A stretch of 64,000 nucleotides of DNA from Kocuria turfanensis. GTDB taxonomy: Bacteria; Actinomycetota; Actinomycetes; Actinomycetales; Micrococcaceae. Every line of letters begins with the position of its first letter. The first letter of the stretch is position 1. The notes beneath the pieces were generated by a model. That model searched no databases. It was not told where the DNA came from and worked only from the letters and a program-made list of their open reading frames with translations. The stretch spans positions 3,618,290 to 3,682,289 of the forward strand of contig NZ_CP014480.1 in NCBI RefSeq assembly GCF_001580365.1, given 5' to 3'. The position numbers were made by a program, and so were the translations under genes. Shown piece after piece: positions 13,289 to 23,629 of the stretch.

Positions 13289-13361
13289 TCCCCCGTAGCT
13301 CAATTGGCAGAGCATTCGACTGTTAATCGAAGGGTTACTGGTTCGAGTCCAGTCGGGGGAG
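13289..13361 (+). tRNA. tRNA-Asn (GTT anticodon)
   Basis: A complete 73-base cloverleaf. Acceptor arm TCCCCCG (13289-13295) pairs with CGGGGGA (13354-13360), with discriminator G13361. The D arm is GCTC...GAGC. The anticodon stem TTCGA/TCGAA encloses the loop CTGTTAA with anticodon GTT at 13322-13324, and the T arm ACTGG/CCAGT has the loop TTCGAGT. CCA is not encoded. Its own promoter lies upstream and a terminator downstream. Confidence 0.97.
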
Positions 13362-13370
13362 CAGCGCAGA

Positions 13371-13404
13371 AGGCCCTCACCGACGGAAACGCCGGTGGGG
13401 GCCT
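13371..13404 (+). terminator. terminator after tRNA-Asn
   Basis: A 12-bp stem (AGGCCCTCACCG with CGGTGGGGGCCT, one T-G pair) followed by CTCTCTCGT. It lies ten bases after the tRNA. Confidence 0.7.
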
Positions 13405-13655
13405 CTCTCGTGCCCACCGGCGGCCACTCGCCGCGGACACGGAGGGACACCTGTTTCCGGTGACTGGTCTCCTGCCTGCTTCCGTGACGTGAGCACGGGA
13501 TGCGCACCGAGGCAGCTTCGCGGCGCGGAGCCCAGGGTGGGACGAGGAGCTGCATCCACGGGCGCACGCGCTCGTCGCGTGATCATCCCCCGGTGCGCAG
13601 GACACGACCCGGCCGGGCGCCTGATGGTCCATCCCCTTCGACGACAATGAGCCGC

Positions 13656-14300
13656 ATGAGACCCCGTCGCGCCCTGGCCGCCGCCGCGCTGCTCGCCCTC
13701 ACCGGATGCGGTGAGCCGGAGGCCCCGCCCGCATCCGACCCGCCCCGGCCCACCTCCTCACCGGACCAACCGGCGCCCGTTGCCTCCCCGACCGCCTCCG
13801 ACGCCGAGAGGGAAGCCGGCCAGGTGCTGCGTGCCCGCACCGCGGACGGCCGCCTCGTCACGGCCTACCTGGACGCACCCGTGCCGGGGGACCTGAAGAG
13901 CTACTTCGACGACACCGGAGCGACAGGCAACCAGTCCTACGTCGTGATGCAGTGCCAGAGACCGTGCTCCCTGGCCGATGCCGGCACCCCGGAGCTCGAC
14001 GGCCTGGACCTGTGGCTGGAGCCGGTGGCCGGCGAGGAAGGTGAGGACGGAGCCATCGCCGACGCCGCGCCCGCTCAGTGGGGCGACGGAGCGGAGATGG
14101 CGTGGACGGAGGAGATGATCACCACCGAGGAGGCGGAGGTCCTCTGGGCGCGGGCCGCGGAGCTGGCCGAGAAGTACGCCCCGGGCACCGACGCTGCTCA
14201 GCAGATCTTCGTCCACCAGGCGGTGTCCGTGCCGGTGCCGGTGACCGGCGGGAAGGTGCAGATCGGGAACGAGACGGTGGTGCTGAGCCCGGTGGAGTGA
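13656..14300 (+). CDS. hypothetical lipoprotein
   Basis: A 214-residue predicted secreted lipoprotein. A short basic N-terminus (MRPRR), a hydrophobic stretch and the lipobox ALTGC put lipidation near residue 19; a Pro/Ser/Thr-rich spacer then leads to a globular domain of about 150 residues containing CQRPCSL. The domain is not recognised. GACAAT (13643-13648) ends seven bases before the ATG at 13656, which suggests a leaderless start; ATG 13647 would add three residues. It is the first gene after tRNA-Asn and is transcribed away from it. It probably sits on the outer face of the cell membrane. Confidence 0.7.
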   Translation: MRPRRALAAAALLALTGCGEPEAPPASDPPRPTSSPDQPAPVASPTASDAEREAGQVLRARTADGRLVTAYLDAPVPGDLKSYFDDTGATGNQSYVVMQCQRPCSLADAGTPELDGLDLWLEPVAGEEGEDGAIADAAPAQWGDGAEMAWTEEMITTEEAEVLWARAAELAEKYAPGTDAAQQIFVHQAVSVPVPVTGGKVQIGNETVVLSPVE

Positions 14301-14497
14301 ACGGGCACGGTCTCGCGCGGCTGCGCACACCCGCGGTGCGCCATCACGTCCCGTGCCGCGACGGCGTCCCCACCATGTCGCTCACCGGCAACCCGGCCCG
14401 CGTCGCCGAGGCGTTCCCCGTCTCGACGTCGCCGCCCACCAGCTCACGGTCGCCCACGAGGACACGATGCCGCCGGCCAGCTCGATGAGCGTGGACC

Positions 14498-14953
14498 ATG
14501 AGGGACTCACGTCATCGGCCCGATCCCGCCGCCGGCGGGGACCGTCGGGAACAGGTCGAGCACACCATCGCGGCCCTCAACGCCCACGACGCCGCCGGAT
14601 TCGCGGCCACCTACAGCCAGGACGCGATCGTCTACACCGCAGCCTCCCCGGACCCCGTGCGTGGCCGAGCAGCCATCCAGCAGGACACCGAGCAGTGGAT
14701 CACCGCGATGCCGGACATGACCCTCGAGCTCGAGGAGGTGGCGGTCGACGGCCCCACAGCAGCGATGCGGCTGCTGTTCGTGGGCACCCACACCGGCCCG
14801 CTGATGACACCGTCCGGGGCGGTCCCGCCCACCGGCCGCCGGGTGTCCGTGCCCATGGCGGTGTTCAACCGGCGCGACGAGAGCGGAACGACCGAGGTGG
14901 AGCACAGATACCTCGACATGATGTCCATGGCCCAGCAGCTCGGCCTCGTCTGA
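14498..14953 (+). CDS. SnoaL-like / nuclear transport factor 2 family protein
   Basis: A 151-residue protein with the cone-fold pattern of SnoaL-like ester cyclase or limonene-1,2-epoxide-hydrolase-type proteins: TIAALNAHDAAGFAATYSQDAIVY, then VRGRAAIQQDTEQW, MPDMTLELEEVAVDG, and GRRVSVPMAVFNRRDE leading to YLDMMSMAQQLGL. Such small single-domain proteins have very diverse substrates and many have none known. The start is ATG 14498; the Shine-Dalgarno is poor. It stands alone between a lipoprotein gene and a convergent cupin gene. Confidence 0.75.
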   Translation: MRDSRHRPDPAAGGDRREQVEHTIAALNAHDAAGFAATYSQDAIVYTAASPDPVRGRAAIQQDTEQWITAMPDMTLELEEVAVDGPTAAMRLLFVGTHTGPLMTPSGAVPPTGRRVSVPMAVFNRRDESGTTEVEHRYLDMMSMAQQLGLV

Positions 14954-15006
14954 CTCCCTGTGCGACGAACGCCCCGGGCTCCGTCGTGGAAGCCGATCCG
15001 CGAGAC

Positions 15007-15597
15007 TCAGTCCTGCCGGTAGTAGTGCTTCTCCAGCTGCTCGGCGATGCCCCTGCGCCGGGCCCGGGCCGCCAGCAGCCGGAACACCGGCATCAACACC
15101 CGGCCGAGGCCGGGAAGGTTCACATCGGACTCCACCAGGACCAGGGCGGCGTGGTGGACGTTCTTCGGCCGCCCGTCCGGGGTGGTCAGGCCGGCCGCTG
15201 CCATGCGCTGCAGCGTGACCACCCACTTCTCGAACCCCGGATGGGCGGGCCGGACCTCGACGAGGAAGCGCACGGGCCGGTCGCCGGAGGCGCGGAACTC
15301 GTGCACCGCCAGCCGCGGCACCACGGCTTCCTCTCCGGCGCCCAACTGGACGGCGCGGCCGGCGATCTTGCCTGCCCCGCGTCCTCCGAGCACGCGAAAG
15401 GTCTCCACATAGTCCCTGTGGAAGTGCGGGAACACCCCGGTGCCGGGGTCGTACTCCCCGTAGATCAGCCCGTACTCCCCGCCGGTGTCCTCGCCTCGGC
15501 GCAACCAGGTCAGGGACGTCCCGGCGGCGTCGTTGCGGTACACCGGCCGCCCGGTGCGCATCTGCGTGATCTGCTCATCGGTCCAGTTCATGACCAT
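15007..15597 (-). CDS. cupin-domain protein
   Basis: A 196-residue protein with a single cupin barrel. FPHFHRDYVETFRVLGGRG gives cupin motif 1 (the H-x-H...E/G pattern) and GAGEEAVVPRLAVHEFRASGDRPVRFLVEVRP gives motif 2. The C-terminal helical tail, about 85 residues long (RVLMPVFRLLAARARRRGIAEQLEKHYYRQD), is typical of a family annotated only as cupin-domain protein. It starts at ATG 15597 (MVMNW) or two codons later. It converges with the NTF2-like gene. Metal binding is likely; the substrate is unknown. Confidence 0.8.
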   Translation of the reverse strand: MVMNWTDEQITQMRTGRPVYRNDAAGTSLTWLRRGEDTGGEYGLIYGEYDPGTGVFPHFHRDYVETFRVLGGRGAGKIAGRAVQLGAGEEAVVPRLAVHEFRASGDRPVRFLVEVRPAHPGFEKWVVTLQRMAAAGLTTPDGRPKNVHHAALVLVESDVNLPGLGRVLMPVFRLLAARARRRGIAEQLEKHYYRQD

Positions 15598-15799
15598 CGC
15601 CCCCGGTCACCAGTCTAATTTCGGGCCCTCCGGGCAGCGCTCGCCGAGCGGGCAGGCGGTGGATTGTGAACGCGCTGTGCCCGTGCGCAAGACCGGAGCG
15701 CAGGTCGGTCGGAGCAGCGGCTCGGACAGGACAGGAGGCGCGGCGGAGACAGGTGCACAGGGGTTTGAGGCGCTCAGCCTCGGGGAGCCCGCCCACAAG

Positions 15800-15990
15800 C
15801 GGCACATCGGGTCCGCGCTGCTGCGGCTGCCGGCCGCGGTCTTGTTCGTCGTGCGCCGGTTGATGGACACTCGCGGCAAGGACCGGAAGAGCCGGGACCG
15901 GCGGATCGCGCTCGTGCTGGTGGCCGCCTCGGTGGCCTGCACGCTGCGGGGCATCCTCCTCGGCTGGAACGGCAGCAGAAGGGAGGCACC
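15800..15990 (+). pseudogene. degenerate upstream copy of the small membrane protein at 15993
   Basis: A translation of this stretch contains RLMDTRGKDRKSRDRRIALVL, matching KGRDRRIAAALLAVAA of the next gene both in sequence and in position ahead of a hydrophobic helix. The DNA is also alike around GCCGGGACCG. The copy has no stop of its own and no start with a Shine-Dalgarno; its frame runs on as an antisense-like shadow. It is read as a decayed tandem duplicate. The limits are approximate. Confidence 0.35.
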
Positions 15991-15992
15991 CG

Positions 15993-16562
15993 ATGCGGAC
16001 CGCGGTAGGGCTCAACCTGTTCGCCCTCGGATTCCTGACCGTCGGGCTGGCCTACCTGGCTCGCGGCCTGGCGCAGGGCAAAGGCACGGTGCCCAAGGGC
16101 CGGGACCGTCGGATCGCCGCGGCCCTGCTCGCCGTGGCGGCCGCGTTGTTCCTGGCTGCCGGCGGCTTCCTGATGACCGGAGACTGGAGATCCGGTCAAC
16201 ACATGGCTCCGTGGCGGCCCCGGCTGGGAAGCAGGACCGCCAGGGGCGGCGCGCGCCTCAAGGGGTGTTGCGGGTGGCGAGACCACGTCCCCCCGACGTG
16301 GTCTCGCGCTGTCGGGCCGCTCGCAGCGGCTCGCCGACAGGGATCAGCCCAGAGAGTCCGCCGGCGCCCCGGCAGCCCCACTTCTGTGCACACGCATGGG
16401 TTCAGCGGCGCCGGTGCCCTGGGCTACTTCGGCGCCTCGACGATCCGCAGCCCCGGCACGTCCTCGGCCACCCGGTGGGCGACCGCCCGCCACCACCGGG
16501 CGGTGGGCGGCAGCGGTGCGCCGGGCAGGTCGAGGGCCGGCATGTCGGCGTCCCGGTCGTAG
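15993..16562 (+). CDS. small two-helix membrane protein with doubtful 3' end
   Basis: The start is well supported: AAGGGAGG (15979-15986) lies six bases before ATG 15993. The first 65 residues form two transmembrane helices (LNLFALGFLTVGLAYLA and AALLAVAAALFLAAGGFLM) joined by a basic loop with KGRDRR. After MTGDWRSG the frame continues for about 120 residues of low-complexity Arg/Gly/Pro sequence. That part runs through a perfect terminator hairpin (16277-16307) and into the end of the opposite gene, so the original stop has probably been lost. The function is unknown, and only the N-terminal part is likely to be meaningful. Confidence 0.45.
   Translation: MRTAVGLNLFALGFLTVGLAYLARGLAQGKGTVPKGRDRRIAAALLAVAAALFLAAGGFLMTGDWRSGQHMAPWRPRLGSRTARGGARLKGCCGWRDHVPPTWSRAVGPLAAARRQGSAQRVRRRPGSPTSVHTHGFSGAGALGYFGASTIRSPGTSSATRWATARHHRAVGGSGAPGRSRAGMSASRS
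16277..16307. terminator. bidirectional terminator hairpin
   Basis: A perfect 13-bp inverted repeat (GCGAGACCACGTC / GACGTGGTCTCGC) with a five-C loop. It lies between the plus-strand membrane gene and the end of the minus-strand operon, so it can serve both. Confidence 0.7.
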
Positions 16563-16876
16563 ACCTCGAGCACCGGGGTGCCGCCGGCGTGCTCGAGCAG
16601 GTGGGCGGCCAGCTGGTCGGCGACCTCGGCGGTGTACGCCTCGATCCGCTCGACGTCGTCGCGGACGCCCTCGGGGATGGGCCGGCGGTCGGACTCCCAG
16701 TCGTCGACCGAGCGCAGGCCGACGTCCAGAGCGGCGGCGAGCTGTTCCCGCGACAGGCCCAGCGCCTCGCGCACGACCTTCAGCTCGATCGGCGTCATCC
16801 GCCCGTCGGCCGGAACCCGCCCCGCAGGGAATGACTGCCGGCGGGACTGTGCCCAGGCGGCCAGGGCCTCGCTCAC
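16424..16876 (-). CDS. helix-turn-helix protein, last gene of an overlapping operon
   Basis: A 150-residue protein. The segment after residue 28, TPIELKVVREALGLSREQLAAAL followed by VGLRSVDDWESDRRPIP, is a clear XRE-like helix-turn-helix of the DUF1870/YdiL type, with recognition-helix residues RSVDDWE. The C-terminal half is a separate small domain (TPVLEVYDRDADMPAL, WWRAVAHRVAEDVPGL) that is not recognised. The start is GTG 16876, overlapping the upstream stop by four bases (GTGA). As the final gene of a coupled operon it may be an autoregulator; this is inferred from position only. Confidence 0.75.
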   Translation of the reverse strand: MSEALAAWAQSRRQSFPAGRVPADGRMTPIELKVVREALGLSREQLAAALDVGLRSVDDWESDRRPIPEGVRDDVERIEAYTAEVADQLAAHLLEHAGGTPVLEVYDRDADMPALDLPGAPLPPTARWWRAVAHRVAEDVPGLRIVEAPK

Positions 16877-17442
16877 GAGCCCTCCACCGTCTGCCCGGTG
16901 TCGTCGTCGGGGTGGGCGGCGCCGACGGCCCAGCTCCACGGGGTGGTGAGGAAGTCGTAGGCGTCCTGCGGGAAGCCGTCGTCGTCGATCAGGTCCCGGG
17001 CGGCCAGGGCGACCAGGGCGTGACCCACCGGCAGCTCGAAGCTGCTGGCGGCAGCCGAGGCGGCGCGCTCCAGGGCTGCCCCGGACGGGGGCGGGGAGTC
17101 GGGACGGGAGCGCCGGTACATCTGCAGGAACAGGTCGGTGGCGATCGCCTGCGACAGGCTCCGCCACGACCCGAGGAGCTGGTCCAGGGCGTCCTGGCGC
17201 CCGGCGGCGGCCGCGGCGTTGACGGCCAGCGTCATGGCGGCGAGGCCGAGCTCCCCGTAGTCGACCTGCTCGGGGGCGTTGTCGGTGACGAACTTCTGGT
17301 GCAGGTCGGTCGCCTTCCGCAGCGCCAGGGACTCATGCAGACCGATGGCGGAGGCCTTCTCGAAGACGGCTCGGACCTGCGTGCCCTGGGGGCCGGCCGC
17401 GGCGGTGAGCATCACGGGATTCTGCCAGACGGGGCTGCTCAC
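16873..17442 (-). CDS. hypothetical protein, fourth gene of the overlapping operon
   Basis: A 189-residue soluble, mostly helical protein rich in Ala and Leu (LGLAAMTLAVNAAAAAGRQDALDQLLGSWRSLSQAIATDLFLQMY). It has no signal peptide and no recognised domain. GTG 17442 is chosen because it overlaps the stop of the 49-codon gene upstream and has GGGAGGGA nine bases before it. The reading frame extends further upstream, but that stretch is a shadow of the neighbouring genes. It is coupled on both sides by GTGA overlaps. Confidence 0.65.
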   Translation of the reverse strand: MSSPVWQNPVMLTAAAGPQGTQVRAVFEKASAIGLHESLALRKATDLHQKFVTDNAPEQVDYGELGLAAMTLAVNAAAAAGRQDALDQLLGSWRSLSQAIATDLFLQMYRRSRPDSPPPSGAALERAASAAASSFELPVGHALVALAARDLIDDDGFPQDAYDFLTTPWSWAVGAAHPDDDTGQTVEGS

Positions 17443-17588
17443 GCGCTCTGTCCCTCCCCGTGGTGGTGGTGCTTCTCCACGTCGTCGTCCAGAAGATGTC
17501 CCGAGGCTGAGACCGCTGCATCGCGGTGGGCCGTGATGGCACGGGAGACATAGGCGACGCGGTCGTTGCCGGTGGTGCGCTCTATCAT
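17439..17588 (-). CDS. 49-residue small protein, third gene of the overlapping operon
   Basis: ATG 17588 to TGA 17439, encoding a 49-residue polar protein that begins MIERTTGNDRVAYV and ends with an acidic/His-rich tail (DDDVEKHHHHGEGQSA). It is supported as a gene by its junctions: its ATG overlaps the stop of the 257-residue gene (ATGA) and its stop overlaps the next GTG (GTGA). It has no hydrophobic segment, so it is neither a membrane peptide nor a secreted one by sequence. The His cluster might bind metal. No family is recognised. Confidence 0.55.
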   Translation of the reverse strand: MIERTTGNDRVAYVSRAITAHRDAAVSASGHLLDDDVEKHHHHGEGQSA

Positions 17589-18358
17589 CGGGAGGCCCTT
17601 CGGTCGTGATCGTGATGCTCGTCGAGGATCCCGGAGAGGACTGCTCCGGGGGTGTGCTGGTGCGCGGGGTCAAGACGCTCCAGCGCCGCGAGGAGAGCCG
17701 CGACGTCGTAGACCTCCGCTGGGTCCCCGCCGTGGTGGGTCCAGCGCCGTTCGGCGACCCAGGCCCACACGTGCACGGGCCGGCACCGGTCACAGGTGCC
17801 GTGCTCGGTGGTGAGGCAGTCCGGCCCGACCGGCTGATTGAGCCCGGAGATCTCTTCGGGGGTGCGGCGGTGGCGCTCCACCACGGACCAGAACTTCTCG
17901 TCGGGGATCTTGGCGAAGTCCTCGCTCAGCTCGGCCAGCGCTTCCCTGGACCGGGCCACGTCGTAGTAGAAATCCGCCCTGGACCACGGCGGGATCCGGT
18001 GGTGGGCGCGCAGCGCTTCGGTGATGACGCGATCCTGGTCGTACGCGATCTCGGCCACGGTGCGAGGCGCCGGGTCGGTGGCCGAGCGCCAGAGGCTGTC
18101 GAACAGGCCGGCACCCTCGGTGTAGGCCTGACGGACCAGAAGGGTGCCGATGTCCAGGGAGTAGCGCTTGGACCACAGTGCCCCGGAGAGCCGGTGGTAG
18201 ACCTGGCCGTCGTCGAGAGTGAAGCTTCTCCGGTCGGAGGAGACGACGACACGGCGGGTGGTGGGCTCGCCGCTGGATCCGCTGCGGGCCGGGATGACCA
18301 CCGCCCGAGCGCCGACGTACACCGCGCCGCCCTTGTTGAGCATCCGCCGCTCATCCAT
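17585..18358 (-). CDS. hypothetical protein with a Cys cluster, second gene of the overlapping operon
   Basis: A 257-residue soluble protein from ATG 18358 (MDERRMLNKGG). The N-terminal 75 residues look like a beta-rich domain (VYVGARAVVIPARS, RRVVVSSDRRSFTLDDGQVY), the middle is helical (ADFYYDVARSREALAEL, KFWSVVERHRRTPEEI), and near residue 190 comes a Cys-x6-Cys-x2-Cys cluster (CLTTEHGTCDRC) that could hold zinc. The C-terminal tail is His/Asp-rich. The stop overlaps the next ATG. A TTG at 18364 is an alternative start. No family is recognised. Confidence 0.65.
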   Translation of the reverse strand: MDERRMLNKGGAVYVGARAVVIPARSGSSGEPTTRRVVVSSDRRSFTLDDGQVYHRLSGALWSKRYSLDIGTLLVRQAYTEGAGLFDSLWRSATDPAPRTVAEIAYDQDRVITEALRAHHRIPPWSRADFYYDVARSREALAELSEDFAKIPDEKFWSVVERHRRTPEEISGLNQPVGPDCLTTEHGTCDRCRPVHVWAWVAERRWTHHGGDPAEVYDVAALLAALERLDPAHQHTPGAVLSGILDEHHDHDRRASR

Positions 18359-18434
18359 CGGCAACGCTCACGCTCATGTGGATCGGCCGGCGCTGTGGTC
18401 CGGAGGGCGGGAACGAGTCGTGCGCGGTGGACAT
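18351..18434 (-). CDS. 27-residue small ORF leading the overlapping operon
   Basis: ATG 18434 to TGA 18351 with a good GAGGAG Shine-Dalgarno eight bases upstream. It encodes a Pro/Ser/Arg-rich peptide that begins MSTAHDSFPPSG and ends in MSVSVADG. Its stop lies eight bases inside the start of the 257-residue gene (ATGGATGA), and that gene has no good Shine-Dalgarno of its own, so translation of the peptide would feed ribosomes into it. It may be a coupling leader, a small gene, or the original N-terminus of the next protein after a frameshift. Confidence 0.4.
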   Translation of the reverse strand: MSTAHDSFPPSGPQRRPIHMSVSVADG

Positions 18435-18658
18435 CGTGGTTGCTCCTCGTGGAGTCGGAGGCGGTGGGCGACGTCTTCGTCCTGTGCCTGCTGTTCGGAA
18501 CCGTAGCAGTCCACGGATGCCCGACGACAGGGTTGGAGCCAGCGGTCACGACAGGCGACGGCACCCGCTCCGGAGACGGTGCGCATGTAGGACATCACGT
18601 TCTCGGTGTGCCGCACCCCGGCACCTTCCGGGCGCCTCCGGGAATCGACCCTCAGGGC

Positions 18659-18934
18659 TCACAGCCCCGCGTAACGCAGCAGCAGCGGCACGGAGACCGA
18701 GCAGATGACACCGCCGAGCAAGGCGGCCACGGACACCATCCGCCACGACCCCAGCACCAGGTAGGACACCACCGACGGCAGCACGACGCCGGCGATCATC
18801 CCGATCACCGTGAAGGCGGTGTAGAAGGGGTCCATGGGGCCTCGCCGGGTACCGAACAGTCCCACGTACTCCAGCTGGAACATGAAGTAGCAGATGAGGG
18901 TGAAATGCAGCCCCAGCACCCACAGCGCCGACAT
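18659..18934 (-). CDS. small membrane protein of unknown function
   Basis: A 91-residue protein with three transmembrane helices (LHFTLICYFMFQLEYVGLF; FYTAFTVIGMIAGVVLPSVVSYLVLG; VSVAALLGGVICSVSVPLLL). The chosen ATG has a perfect AAGGAGG (18940-18946) five bases upstream. An alternative ATG at 18994 (MSPGRN) has GGAGG and overlaps the stop of a 16-codon frame (18991-19041), so a longer form cannot be excluded. It lies downstream of a cupin gene on the same strand, about 90-150 bases away. No family is recognised. Confidence 0.65.
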   Translation of the reverse strand: MSALWVLGLHFTLICYFMFQLEYVGLFGTRRGPMDPFYTAFTVIGMIAGVVLPSVVSYLVLGSWRMVSVAALLGGVICSVSVPLLLRYAGL

Positions 18935-19081
18935 CGCAGCCTCCTTGCGCACCGGGGTCTCCGACCGGGACTGCGGGTTCCGCCCGGGGCTCATCGGGCT
19001 CCCTCCGTGCGCAGCGCGCCGAGTTCCACGGCGAAGGTCATCGGACCCCGGTCGCGCTCCTCTGCGGGCCGGGTGGCCAGG

Positions 19082-19594
19082 TCAGGTGCGCAGGTTGCCG
19101 GGCATCTGGGTCGCGGTCCGGTCGTCCGGCGGCGGCCCACCTGTGTCCAGCGGCCGATCGGAGTGGTCCGTGATCTCGGCCGGGTAGCGGCTGTCATCGA
19201 CGTCGTCGCCGATGAACGGCAGCCGGGTGGCTTGCGGATGCCGGGCGCGGACCCGAAGCGCCAGCTCCTCCACCGTGGACGAGCCCTGGTTCGCCCATAG
19301 ATGCACGGCGTCCACCGGCGCCGTGGCGTCCTCCCCGGGCAGCACGGCGTGGGGTTTCCTGGCGATCTCGACGGTCAGTGCACCACCCTCCAGGACCTCG
19401 AAGTGCTCGGCGGAGTGCAGAGGGTGGCGCCGGGGCACGCCGGCCCCGGGCTCCGCCACGAGGTGGACGAGAGTGCACTCCCCGCTGGTCCCCGCACTGG
19501 TGCGCAGGAAGGTGACCGCGTCGCCCAGGAACGTGTTCCGGTGGGTGGTGCACGTGGCCAGCAGCTCGTCGATCTCCGCCTGGGTCGGCCGCAT
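19082..19594 (-). CDS. cupin-domain protein
   Basis: A 170-residue protein with one cupin barrel. LVAEPGAGVPRRHPLHSAEHFEVLEGG forms motif 1, with His/Glu metal-ligand positions, and VHLWANQGSSTVEELALRV forms motif 2. The start is ATG 19594 (MRPTQAEIDELL); the extra 19 codons upstream look non-coding. The Asp/Pro-rich tail (DDVDDSRYP) is disordered. Related proteins are called cupin-domain proteins with no assigned reaction. It is possibly co-transcribed with the membrane-protein gene downstream. Confidence 0.75.
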   Translation of the reverse strand: MRPTQAEIDELLATCTTHRNTFLGDAVTFLRTSAGTSGECTLVHLVAEPGAGVPRRHPLHSAEHFEVLEGGALTVEIARKPHAVLPGEDATAPVDAVHLWANQGSSTVEELALRVRARHPQATRLPFIGDDVDDSRYPAEITDHSDRPLDTGGPPPDDRTATQMPGNLRT

Positions 19595-20380
19595 GGCGAT
19601 CGCCGTTCGTGCGTCTGTGCCGGCCACCACGCTACGCCGAGGTGAGGGCACGGGACCTGCGCACGGTCGAATGACGGCCGGGAGGACATACGGCCCGCAG
19701 CGCGGCCCACAGCACGGTGATCATGCCTCAACCTGTGCCGCGACTGCCCACCGGCACCAGATGCCCGGCCATGGCGGGCGTGGCGTCGTCCGCGGAGGGT
19801 CCGGAACGACATTGGGCGTCCCGTGGGGCGGGGACGCCGTGTGCCGGCGACCCCGAACACGAGCTGAAGATGAACGTTGACGAGCTGCGCGTCGGTCTGC
19901 CGGGGGGCCTGGGGCACCGATCACCGAGGAGCCGCACGAGATTTGCGAGAAGCCCGTCGCGACGGCCGCGATCACCGCCCCGCGGTCCTCGACGGGACCG
20001 CCGATCGACGGGCTCGATGCCACGCACACCGGCCGGCTGACAGGGGTCACCGTCGACGACGAGGGCCGCTCCGCCGGCTCGTGCGTGCGGCCGATGAGCC
20101 CCGCGGATGAGGGTTGCGTCGCGACCGTTGCCCGTATCGGCAACGCGGATGCACGATCCTCATCTCCTCTCACTGCAGAGGCCGCAGGTCGGTGACCATG
20201 CGGTTCGCGCGGTTGGAGGCCGACGGAGGCAGACATGGGTGCCAGGGCGTGGCGACGTGCAGCGGCAGGCTCGGGGGCGGCGGGTCTGGCGGTGTCCGCC
20301 CTCATGCCGTCGGCGTAGGAGTACGTCGTCGTGGAGCTGAGCCGGGCCTCATGCTGAACCGCTGTCGATCGGGGCCGCGG
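19595..20380. other. 786-base stretch with no intact gene
   Basis: Apart from the possible remnant at 19870-20195, only short, Arg/Ser-rich overlapping frames are seen. No tRNA, repeat array, strong hairpin or insertion-sequence end was recognised. It looks like decayed DNA inside the accessory region. Confidence 0.5.
19870..20195 (+). pseudogene. possible frameshifted remnant gene
   Basis: ATG 19870 opens a frame (MNVDELRVGLPGGLG) that turns into a poor sequence. A protein-like frame without a start begins in the -1 phase at the G6 run 19902-19907 and continues to TGA 20195 (GAPITEEPHEICEK ... GRLTGVTVDDEG ... ADEGCVATVARIGNAD). One indel in the G-run would join them into a product of roughly 108 residues. 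No family is recognised, and the call rests only on amino-acid composition. Confidence 0.25.
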
Positions 20381-21067
20381 TCAGTCCTCGTACTGGTCCA
20401 GCACGCCGACCATCCACCGCGAATAGACGGCCATCGCCGGGTCGTGGTCCTCTCGTGGCCCCGGGGTGGTCGCCTGCGCGGCGGCGGTGCGCAGCAGGGC
20501 GAGCGCCGTGGCGCGCAGACCGCTGCGCATGACGGCGTCGTGGAGGATCAGCTCCGAGACGTCCATGACGCGCCCGGTCACCTCCGCACCGTCGTCGGTG
20601 GGGTGCGGGCCCATCCACGCCCAGGTGCTCTCCATGCCGGGGTCCACGAGCAGGTGAGCTGTGGGATCGCCGTAGGAGTCGGGTTGGCGGATCCTCAGGG
20701 CGACGGCCGTGCCGATGCGGACCTCGAGGATGCCGACGGCCTGCCGGTACTCCTGCCCTCCGGGGGAGACCGGCACGAGGGCGCACAGTCCGGCCCCGGC
20801 CAGCAGCTCCACCGAGGCCGGCATCACGTCGCGCAACCACCGGGCCAGTAGCACCAGGGCCACCTCGCCGCCGTCCATCGCCGCCGTGTTGCGCACCGCT
20901 GCGGAGATCTGGCTATGGTCCGGGAACTCGTCCGAGGGGGTGAACCCGCTGACGAAGGCGTCCGGGTCTGCGAGGAAGCGGATCTGGTCGGCCGCCGGCA
21001 CGAGGACGGCCAGTCGTCCGGGATCGGCACGGACCTCGTCGGCGGTGACGGTCAGGGGCTGGGACAT
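20381..21067 (-). CDS. hypothetical protein
   Basis: A 228-residue soluble protein from ATG 21067 (MSQPLTVTADEV), with AGGAGA four bases before the start. It has no signal peptide or membrane segment. Acidic and hydrophobic blocks alternate (LVPAADQIRFLADPDAFVSGF; VALVLLARWLRDVMPASVELL; GQEYRQAVGILEVRIG), and the C-terminus ends MVGVLDQYED. No catalytic motif stands out. It is flanked by sequence without genes on both sides. Codon use matches the host, so it is likely expressed, but its function is unknown. Confidence 0.65.
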   Translation of the reverse strand: MSQPLTVTADEVRADPGRLAVLVPAADQIRFLADPDAFVSGFTPSDEFPDHSQISAAVRNTAAMDGGEVALVLLARWLRDVMPASVELLAGAGLCALVPVSPGGQEYRQAVGILEVRIGTAVALRIRQPDSYGDPTAHLLVDPGMESTWAWMGPHPTDDGAEVTGRVMDVSELILHDAVMRSGLRATALALLRTAAAQATTPGPREDHDPAMAVYSRWMVGVLDQYED

Positions 21068-21365
21068 GGGTTCTCCTGGACGTGGGTGCGTTCGTCCCAT
21101 GCTCCGCTCCCGCCGGGGAGCACCCGTGCAGGACACGCCCCAGGCTGATACCGGTGTGCCGAATCAGCAGGTGACCATGAGCAGGAGGCGGTCGGCGACA
21201 TGGGGGCTCGGCGGAATCCACTGTCCCGAGTGCACTTGTGGCAGCAACCTGGCGGTCGCGCGTGCCGCGTTCCCGGGACGGGTGGCGACGCACGGTGACG
21301 GGCGCGGGCAGGACGAGGGCTGCAGCGCGGCGGGCCCGGCAGGCGACCGGTGCAGGACCGGCCGC
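21068..21365. other. 298-base gap without a supported gene
   Basis: Contains only short frames, such as MSRRRSATWGLGG on the plus strand near 21178. No terminator or promoter of note was recognised apart from the Shine-Dalgarno of the gene at 21067. Confidence 0.4.
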
Positions 21366-22106
21366 TCAGCCGCCGATGTACTCGCCCGTGATCGCGTCGA
21401 CGGTGCCGGCCTCGATGCCCTCGCACTGGGAGACCCCCGCGGCGGTGACGGGGGTGTAGTTGAGGCAGAAGGCGTCGTAGTAGGGCATCCCGGACTGCCA
21501 GGCGGCGTAGGCCTCGTCGTAGCTGAAGTCCTGGTCCGGGATCGCCCCGGGGCCGGGGTTCGCGCCGGGCGCGGCGGCGCAGGCGGCCGGATCGGCGCTG
21601 TTGGTGGCGAGGTACTGGCCGAGGGCGTCGACGACGTCGACCTGCTGGCGGCCGGTGCCCATCTCCGTGCGGTAGCTGTCACAGAGCGCCACGGCCACGC
21701 CGGGGTCGTAGAGGTTCGTGCTCAGCCGGTGCACCGTGGGCCCGTCGCCGGTCCCGCCCATGATGTCGATGCCGGTGAGCGCGCCGGCGAACCGGGCGCC
21801 GGCGTCCGTGCCCGTGAACGCCGCCAGCGGATCGGCCGCCGGCGGGTTGTTCGCGGAGCCGGCCTGGGTCGGCTCCGGCCCGGGGGCCGGGGCGGCCGGA
21901 TCCTCCGTGGGCTCCGGTGCCTCGGAGGTCTCGGGTGCCTCCGGGGTCTTCGAGGCCCCGGGCGCCGTGGCGGATGCGGACGGCGACGCGGCCGGGGTGC
22001 TGGAGGACGTCGCTCCGTTCCCCGGGTCCTCGGCGTCGTCGGAGCAGGCGGTCAGGGCGAGGCCGGTGGTGAGGACCAGGGCGACGAGGGGGGCCTTCTT
22101 GCGCAC
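21366..22106 (-). CDS. hypothetical lipoprotein with Pro/Ala/Thr-rich linker
   Basis: A 246-residue predicted lipoprotein. GTG 22106 has AGGAG six bases upstream and opens VRKKAPLVALVLTTGLALTAC, whose lipobox LTAC puts the acylated Cys at residue 21. About 70 residues of Ala/Pro/Ser/Glu linker follow, then a globular domain of roughly 150 residues with four Cys (ALCDSY, DPAACAAAP, DAFCLNY, SQCEGIE) that could form two disulfides outside the membrane. The 382-codon open frame upstream is a shadow. It is a surface-anchored protein of unknown role. Confidence 0.75.
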   Translation of the reverse strand: MRKKAPLVALVLTTGLALTACSDDAEDPGNGATSSSTPAASPSASATAPGASKTPEAPETSEAPEPTEDPAAPAPGPEPTQAGSANNPPAADPLAAFTGTDAGARFAGALTGIDIMGGTGDGPTVHRLSTNLYDPGVAVALCDSYRTEMGTGRQQVDVVDALGQYLATNSADPAACAAAPGANPGPGAIPDQDFSYDEAYAAWQSGMPYYDAFCLNYTPVTAAGVSQCEGIEAGTVDAITGEYIGG

Positions 22107-22210
22107 GGAGGACTCCTGCGGGGGCGGGGGCGGGGGACGTACTGCACACTGTAGGGCGCGCTCGCCCGGCAGCGACGGAGGACGCCCCGCCTCCGTGTCA
22201 GCCGTCCGTG

Positions 22211-22477
22211 TCAGCCGTCGAGGCGGATCCGGACCCCGTCGACCGGCTCGGGCAGCCCGTGGACGGCCGTGTGGTTGAGCACGGTGTTCCACACGGCGAT
22301 CCGGACCTCCGTCTCGGTCAGGGCGGCCGGACGGCCGGAGACCACCACGGACCACTCCCGGCCCTCGGAGAGCACGTCGGCGCTGGAGACGGCGATGCCC
22401 CGGGCGGACAGGGAGCGGAGGACGTCGTCGCGCACCGGGGTCGCGGTGGGACGGGCCGTGCGGGTGATGACGGTCAT
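22211..22477 (-). CDS. small hypothetical protein
   Basis: An 88-residue protein from ATG 22477 (MTVITRTARPTATPVRDDVLRSL), with GGAAGGA about ten bases before the start. The predicted alternation of helix and strand (SARGIAVSSADVLSEGREWSVVVSGRPAAL, ETEVRIAVWNTVLNHTAV) suggests a compact alpha/beta fold. It is about 100 bases upstream of, and on the same strand as, the lipoprotein at 22106, so the two may be co-transcribed. Not recognised. Confidence 0.6.
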   Translation of the reverse strand: MTVITRTARPTATPVRDDVLRSLSARGIAVSSADVLSEGREWSVVVSGRPAALTETEVRIAVWNTVLNHTAVHGLPEPVDGVRIRLDG

Positions 22478-22783
22478 GGCGGGATTCCTTCCGGGAGAGC
22501 ACGAGGCTGCGCACCTCCTATTCAGCCGCATGGGACCGCTCCTGTAATGCCCGCTCTTTGCGGGACAGCGCGAGGACGCCGCTGTGGGCTCCTCGGCGGA
22601 CGGGCGCGCTGCGGAGCCGCCTCCGCGCTGTTCGGCCCCGGTGGGCCGGGAGACCGGTCGGGCCCCTCGCCCGGGCCCGGCACCCGGCGGCCTGCCGACC
22701 CCGTGCGCGCCCGCCGGCGGTCGGCCCGATGGTAGCTTGGTGCTCAGTCCACGTACTTTTTCTCATCATCAACGGAGGCGGGC
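22478..22783. other. 306-base divergent intergenic region
   Basis: Carries the 5' ends of two divergent genes. On the plus strand TAGCTT (22733-22738) is a possible -10 for the holin-like gene, followed by a T-rich stretch (TACTTTTTCTC) and the GGAGG ribosome-binding site. Nothing else was recognised. Confidence 0.4.
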
Positions 22784-23629
22784 ATGAGTCATTCGGTAGG
22801 CCCCAGCACGGGCGGCACCTCGGGAGCGGGGGCGGAGCGCACCGACCCGGGGACGGCGTCGATCCTGGATGTCGTCAAGGTCTTCGGCCGACTGCTGCCC
22901 AAGCAGCTCAAGGACGAGGCGCAGCTCGCGAAGATCGAGCTCACGGAGAAGGCCAAGACGCTCGGGAAGGGCGCGGCCTTCGTCGTCGTCGGACTGGTCT
23001 TCCTGCTGCTGGCCACCATCGCGCTCGTCGGCGCCGCCATCGCCGGCCTGTCGCAGGTGATGCCGGCGTGGCTGGCGGCACTGCTGCTGGGCGTGCTGTT
23101 CCTGATCGTCCTGGTGGTCGCGGCGCTGATCGGGGTGGCCACGATCAAGAAGGCCATGCCGCTCGTCCCGCGCAAGGCGATCTTCGGGCTCAAGTACGAC
23201 CTCGGCGTGGTCAAGGAGGGCTCCGCCTACACCGAGAGCCGCGTCCAGCGCGAGGAGCAGCTGGCCCGCGAGCGCAAGGAGCAGGAGCAGCGCGAGGCGG
23301 CCCAGGACCCGGCCCGCCAGAAGCCCCCGGCGCCGACCGAGGAGCAGCTGCGGCACCGGCTGAAGCTGCGCCGCGAGCACCTCAAGACGCTGCGTGACGA
23401 CGTCCAGGGCCGCGCCGAGACCATCCAGTCCACGACCAAGGGCTTCGTGGACCGCACGAGCCGCACGGTCCGGACCACGCCCAAGGACGTCAAGAGCCTC
23501 CTGGCCCAGGGCGGCGGGACCCGCTCCGGCGCGGGACAGTCCGGGCTGGGGGAGCGCTGGCAGCCGCTCACGGTCCTGGCCGTGGCGGGCAGCGCGTTCC
23601 TCGTCTTCCTGCGCAGGCTGTTCCGGTGA
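22784..23629 (+). CDS. phage-holin-family (holin III/DUF1469-like) membrane protein
   Basis: A 281-residue protein. After a polar N-terminus, a charged amphipathic segment (LPKQLKDEAQLAKIELTEKAKTLG) leads to two long transmembrane helices (FVVVGLVFLLLATIALVGAAIAGL and LAALLLGVLFLIVLVVAALIGVA). This is the layout of the putative actinobacterial holin-III family (PF07332-like). A basic, coiled-coil-like cytoplasmic region of 130 residues follows (EEQLARERKEQEQREAAQ). A hydrophobic patch near the C-terminus (TVLAVAGSAFLVFLRRLF) may be a third membrane segment. GGAGG lies just before the ATG. These proteins are common chromosomal genes and do not by themselves mark a prophage. Confidence 0.8.
   Translation: MSHSVGPSTGGTSGAGAERTDPGTASILDVVKVFGRLLPKQLKDEAQLAKIELTEKAKTLGKGAAFVVVGLVFLLLATIALVGAAIAGLSQVMPAWLAALLLGVLFLIVLVVAALIGVATIKKAMPLVPRKAIFGLKYDLGVVKEGSAYTESRVQREEQLARERKEQEQREAAQDPARQKPPAPTEEQLRHRLKLRREHLKTLRDDVQGRAETIQSTTKGFVDRTSRTVRTTPKDVKSLLAQGGGTRSGAGQSGLGERWQPLTVLAVAGSAFLVFLRRLFR

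Follow-up and report, generated by a model that had tools for sequence, protein, structure and literature searches.

Two separable accessory gene modules with a shared leader in Kocuria, possibly a small regulon under an Aca2/YdiL-like regulator

We analysed a stretch of 64,000 nucleotides from Kocuria turfanensis (contig NZ_CP014480.1, positions 3,618,290 to 3,682,289; hereafter the window), in which five chained minus-strand frames had been described by a first-pass annotation as a single operon. The frames are named here by the size of their products in amino acids (aa): 257, 189, a helix-turn-helix (HTH) protein of 150 aa, and two small frames of 49 and 27 aa. The three large genes fall into two modules, module A with the 257 gene and module B with the 189 and HTH genes, which are found apart from each other in the genus and have the same leader upstream. 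We interpret the two modules as a small accessory regulon that would be feedback-repressed by the Aca2/YdiL-like HTH protein, and we give this reading about an even chance (probability near 0.5).

Two modules with a shared leader

The distribution of the modules was compared across 27 Kocuria genomes, comprising the window genome (G000) and relatives that include G003, G008, G011, G013, G014, G016 and G021. A close 257 gene (69-100% identity) is present in six of them (G000, G003, G008, G013, G014 and G021) and the 189 gene in four (G000, G003, G013 and G016). The HTH gene is found in the same four genomes, and G011 gives a distant partial match. Three genomes hold both modules, which adjoin only in the window and are separated by 734 kb in G003 and by 11 kb in G013. 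The first-pass annotation had argued that strict coupling of the frames implies selection for fixed product ratios. This does not agree with the distribution of the genes: the 257-49-189 chain exists in only one of the three genomes with both genes, three others (G008, G014 and G021) have 257 without 189, and one (G016) has the 189-HTH pair without a close 257 gene. Judged from gene order, the five-frame chain is a composite of two modules behind one putative promoter, not an indivisible five-gene machine. A second fused 257/189 arrangement may exist in one more organism, as the homologs P0006 and P0023 are listed with metagenome contigs of equal length (20,076 bases), probably a single contig.

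The 257 gene also occurs alone on two Kocuria plasmids. It is present on a 63-kb Kocuria rosea plasmid, and the G014 copy, which has one internal stop, lies on a 4520-bp contig corresponding to Kocuria flava plasmid 4. In that plasmid record (L047, 4520 bp) the 257-like gene is accompanied by genes for an Asp/Glu racemase and an NCS1 transporter, neighbours that it also has in G008; the record is circular, has no annotated replication gene and may be an assembly product. A search of genome contigs with 257 confirmed at least one locus, in Kocuria rosea TA 28. No relatives of 257 were found in phages at E 0.1, and neither 257, 189 nor the leader pattern was confirmed in viral contigs. In plasmids, the leader of the G013 189 gene matched at chance level only. 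Among 396 genomes of the order, with at most eight candidates scored in the genomes listed, the 189 search returned, besides the gene itself, only a partial match to the C-terminus that contains a stop.

The same leader of about 70 bp is found upstream of 257 in G000, G003, G008, G013, G021 and the K. rosea plasmid, and upstream of 189 in G003, G013 and G016, so that the window leader could be compared with eight others. Its layout is CTG(C/T)TACGGT, 5-6 bases, (C/T/G)A(G/A)CAGGCAC(C/A)GG, followed after about 45 bases by a Shine-Dalgarno stretch. The -10 and the Shine-Dalgarno sequence were assigned by eye, with TACGGT preceded by TG reading as an extended -10. The core pattern TACGGTN{5,6}NARCAGGCAC gave eight matches in 6 of the 27 genomes, all eight before a 257 or a 189 gene, and the reversed control pattern gave two matches. 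The plasmid copy of 257 in G014 has no match to the core pattern. The 257-leaders of G000 and G013 share 85-90% identity with the three 189-leaders, compared with 25-40% over the 60 columns upstream; identity is lower for the other 257-leaders (74% in G003; 61-75% in G021, G008 and the plasmid). Within single genomes, the 257-leader and the 189-leader are 74% identical in G003 and 90% identical in G013. In G016 (L043:8775-10010), an upstream frame runs unstopped through the leader into 189, and the putative promoter there lies inside an open frame.

In the window, one leader copy would drive both modules. Because each module has its own copy in the relatives, modules A and B would together form a small regulon. 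The earlier proposal of one functional unit survives in part: a link between some members is borne out by a specific shared upstream element, and a single five-gene system is not. An inverted repeat, CTGYT-N11/12-ARCAG, spans the -10, and its arms are fully paired in seven of the nine leaders; in the K. rosea plasmid leader both arms have changed together, to CTGTT/AACAG.

The HTH protein is the candidate binder of this repeat. It matches HTH_31 (28.6 bits, cut-off 27) and HTH_3 (26.8 bits, cut-off 23), with the domain beginning after a 26-residue extension. Its best chain in the PDB by sequence is Aca2 (7ezy; E 0.0049), in a match over residues 27-106 that reaches beyond the HTH and may take in a C-terminal dimerisation domain of the Aca2 type. 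Plasmid relatives are annotated DUF1870, and two intact relatives show 88-89% identity. The protein's only hits in PADLOC-DB were to RmrA models (E 0.0057 and 0.067) and were confined to the HTH part. Inverted repeats overlapping the -10 and -35 are the binding sites of Aca1 and Aca2, and Aca2 thereby represses its own operon, as excerpts of one study describe (PMC8434428). In the most likely mode of action, the Kocuria protein would bind CTGYT-N11/12-ARCAG across the -10 and shut off its own operon, and it would shut off 257 in trans where that gene is unlinked. A burst of both putative effectors would be expected on arrival in a new cell, while the repressor is still scarce. The G003 copy of the HTH gene (L041:10285-10629) has a 36-residue in-frame loss that includes the helix-turn-helix, and its 189 partner is intact. 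This loss, together with the drift of the two G003 leaders (74% identity against 90% in G013), fits the loss of a common binder. Inspection by eye showed a small membrane-protein frame convergent with the HTH gene in the window (15993-16202) and in G016 (L043:10694-10888), and a remnant of it in G003.

Several observations weigh against the regulon. A consensus promoter scan found no sigma-70 site and no terminator on the minus strand. The repeat arms carry one mismatch in two of the nine leaders, and the spacer, 11 bases in eight of them, is one base longer (12) in the window. The HTH protein scores 17.1 bits against PF08965 (Aca2_YdiL), below the cut-off of 23.8. The difference in leader drift between G003 and G013 rests on a single case on each side. 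A related leader is kept before 257 in G008 and G021, which have no HTH relative at E 0.001; therefore the leader can persist without the HTH protein. The shared leader could also be a product of duplication or gene conversion without regulation. A role of the leader as an RNA element was rejected, as four of four folds were no better than shuffles and the covariation term was 0.31, practically none; Rfam gave no match in window positions 16000-19300 at E 1.

Overlapping frames and their products

All five frames of the first-pass annotation are present at the positions it gave (Table 1), with overlaps in order of 8, 4, 4 and 4 bases. Across the window and 16 fetched loci, our gene calls contain 213 co-directional neighbour pairs, of which 27 overlap, and exactly 4 bases is the commonest overlap (19 of 213 pairs, 19 of the 27 overlapping pairs). 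Because 4-base overlaps are commonplace in these loci, the chain is ordinary and, taken alone, says little. Start-stop overlaps are widespread, and short overlaps couple translation, according to excerpts of two studies (PMC6728339, PMC10666635). Conservation separates the junctions: the overlap between 189 and HTH is kept in all four genomes that hold the pair, and the first three junctions are not conserved in relatives. The 257, 189 and HTH frames are real genes under purifying selection, since they have homologs and their ratios of nonsynonymous to synonymous differences (pN/pS) are well below 1 (0.27-0.53 for 257, 0.20-0.57 for 189 and 0.26-0.32 for HTH).

Table 1 Features of the window discussed in the text.
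Feature	Position	Strand	Description
Candidate operator	18488..18509	-	Inverted repeat CTGCT-N12-AGCAG across the -10; predicted binding site
Shared leader with putative promoter	18441..18509	-	CTGCT-TACGGT read as extended -10, conserved 5' leader, Shine-Dalgarno GAGGAG (18448-18443)
27-codon frame	18351..18434	-	Open reading frame; unconserved; poor codon score
Module A, 257-aa protein	17585..18358	-	N-terminal domain common to paralogs; two related helical stretches with Cys/His cluster between
49-aa orphan frame	17439..17588	-	Open reading frame bridging the modules; without relatives; intermediate codon score
Module B gene 1, 189-aa helical protein	16873..17442	-	Related to phage/plasmid family phrog_8332
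Module B gene 2, 150-aa Aca2/YdiL-like helix-turn-helix regulator	16424..16876	-	Above the cut-off for HTH_31, below it for PF08965; closest PDB chain 7ezy
Strain-variable interval holding the operon	13363..22783		Between tRNA-Asn and the conserved gene at 22784

The small frames had been presented as operon members, and neither has a conserved counterpart. Among about 5.8 billion proteins, the 49-aa frame had no match but itself, and in the genus genomes every match outside its own place had E 0.024 or worse. Given its two ends, the gap stays open in 49% of shuffles. As to codon-level selection, it outscores its five alternative frames, with an intermediate value (reached by 42 of 1779 off-frame open stretches, with 15 of 570 true-gene pieces as low). 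The 27-aa frame scores poorly: a value as low is found in 5 of 570 true-gene pieces, and one as high in 518 of 2148 off-frame pieces. Derivation of the 49-aa frame from a second leader that had decayed, or from former sequence downstream of 257, was rejected after none of ten local DNA alignments stood out (three with upstream regions of 189, three with leader regions of 257 and four with downstream regions of 257); the closest, downstream of 257 in G013, was equalled by 32 of 300 shuffles. The frame may be a young bridge between the modules. At the place of the 27-aa frame, after the shared leader, relatives have different, short or unstopped frames or none, as with a 42-aa frame in G003 and no frame in G013. 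Because the window 257 start, inspected by eye, is without its own Shine-Dalgarno sequence, the 27-codon frame may supply it with ribosomes.

The 257 protein has 16 aligned homologs at 51-83% identity, and the residues C181, H186, C189 and C192 are invariant in 17 of 17 sequences, plausibly forming a zinc site. This cluster is flanked by two helical stretches that are related to each other in a profile match of P 1.4e-4 and a probability of only 26%. The N-terminal domain recurs in paralogs confined to the genus (residues 7-165 in a profile match, E 1.6e-17). Kocuria paralogs of 165 aa and of about 110 aa share this GGA..GaRAVV..DDG.. domain with 257, and those of 165 aa also share the helical stretch YDV...IP..FW.VV..H. 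Neither kind has the Cys cluster of 257 or its second helical stretch, and the gene neighbourhood of the 165-aa paralogs recurs in G003, G013 and G016. Paralogs with the N-terminal domain were seen at L018:6232-6729, L020:6868-7365, L023, L024, L029, L030 and L025-L028, and in G003 and G013 such paralogs also lie some 7 kb upstream of 257. The full 257 protein has no match in Pfam, NCBIfam, PADLOC or the PDB.

The 189 protein has 15 aligned homologs at 64-82% identity. It matches phrog_8332 (E 5.9e-7, 30.3 bits) in two stretches, in its N- and C-terminal parts, with the best over residues 16-101. Other members of this family are Orf55 of Skermania phage SPI1 (2.5e-16) and a Mycolicibacterium aubagnense plasmid protein (6.1e-10). 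With actinobacterial phage and plasmid proteins of phrog_8332 and phrog_762, 189 has in common a C-terminal motif, ARDLI...F.Q..YD.LT.PW...G..HPDD; unlike those relatives, and so far as seen only in Kocuria, it is coupled to an HTH gene. The earlier statement that no product except the HTH protein belongs to a recognised family is correct for Pfam, NCBIfam and PADLOC, and has to be amended for 189 given its resemblance to phrog_8332. None of 257, 49 and 189 matched a toxin family in Pfam, NCBIfam or PADLOC, or a defence model in PADLOC-DB.

The tRNA-Asn hotspot

The tRNA-Asn gene is at 13289-13362, and the operon lies 3 kb beyond it. The interval between tRNA-Asn and the conserved gene at 22784 measures 9.4 kb in the window and 8.8, 3.9, 9.1, 0.9, 12.4, 4.1 and about 6.8 kb in the seven measurable relatives; in G008 it is near-empty. 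The ten genes called at 13824-22106 were not found in the corresponding intervals of seven relatives, with two exceptions: a piece of a SnoaL-like gene at 16% coverage in G021, and a paralog of the 257 N-terminal domain at 35% identity in G014. The interval is thus a variable hotspot of accessory DNA, in agreement with the first-pass annotation, which placed the operon in an accessory stretch downstream of tRNA-Asn. Two cupin-like genes (15007-15597 and 19082-19651), about 32% alike, flank the operon.

Competing explanations and known systems

The modules may also be accessory gene sets joined by recombination, in which the leader is a copied strong promoter or ribosome site, the HTH protein regulates something else and there is no common task. 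We regard this as possible, although somewhat unlikely. It is consistent with the persistence of the leader before 257 in G008 and G021 without this HTH gene, with the plasmids that carry 257 alone, and with the nature of the tRNA-Asn interval as a recombination hotspot. The confinement of all eight core matches to these two genes would be odd for a generic strong promoter, and the conservation of about 70 bp upstream of two genes that are unrelated to each other and stand at unlinked sites also speaks against it. Should the leader be only a copied promoter, the locus would be ordinary hotspot cargo. The notion of one selected five-frame unit, with every overlap fixing product ratios, draws on overlaps that exist and on the translational coupling reported for short overlaps in the excerpts cited above; it is largely refuted by synteny, with the 257-49-189 junction in one of three genomes, and by the lack of conserved counterparts of the small frames, and we hold it to be extremely doubtful.

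Module B on its own resembles a toxin-antitoxin pair, with a toxin first and an XRE-type antitoxin second, as in HigBA or MqsRA, and with 257 as a third or unrelated component. The coupled gene order with HTH second is conserved in 4 of 4 genomes, and the HTH protein has sub-threshold matches to MqsA (24.2 bits, cut-off 61.8) and YdaS_toxin (23.4 bits, cut-off 30) and a weak match in the PDB to HigA-2. The family scores of the HTH protein to antitoxins are all far below the cut-offs, 189 belongs to no toxin family in the databases searched and its relatives are phage and plasmid proteins, which makes such a pair quite improbable. We judge it very unlikely that 189, and perhaps 257, block a host defence such as CRISPR-Cas from an aca-type operon with the HTH protein as an Aca-like repressor. 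The Aca2-like regulator is indeed the last gene, the 189 family is found in phages and plasmids, and 257 is found on plasmids. However, Cas1 is absent from all seven genomes that carry either module and present in 5 of the 27 genus genomes, so that assigning an anti-CRISPR function by association with the regulator is unlikely to be correct. In addition, an acr gene lies upstream for only 3% (35 of 1223) of the Aca2-like proteins, by the figures in excerpts of PMC9410906, and relatives of the HTH protein in four phage or plasmid regions have no adjoining gene annotated as 189-like, by annotations in which the products are hypothetical.

Returning to the regulon, a bolder form would be a two-locus system specific to the genus. 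In it, two modules that move separately, one with the Cys-cluster protein 257 and one with the phage-type protein 189 and its repressor, would be tied by a shared operator-leader instead of by gene order. The repressor would thereby control both at any location, and the effectors would act jointly, most likely against phages or incoming plasmids, or against host defences. We think this form unlikely. If the leader is a common operator, accessory genes would stay one regulon after their operon has been taken apart, and the leader would serve as a search handle for partner genes that synteny misses. The locus also yields two protein families that had not been described, with named partners, and the G003 regulator without its HTH serves as a natural experiment.

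Among known systems, a close comparison is with the Aca2/YdiL-like autorepressors (PF08965, DUF1870). The window protein differs from Aca2 in scoring below the PF08965 cut-off and in its conserved 26-residue N-terminal extension before the Aca2-like part. The operon differs from acr-aca operons in that it has no known acr gene, its carrier genomes have no Cas1, and it would have an unlinked second target operon. In common with Aca2 systems, it would have an operator repeat overlapping the -10, for which CTGYT-N11/12-ARCAG is the candidate, at a site where the promoter scan was negative, and, as in those systems, an XRE-like HTH protein is encoded last in a short, coupled accessory operon.

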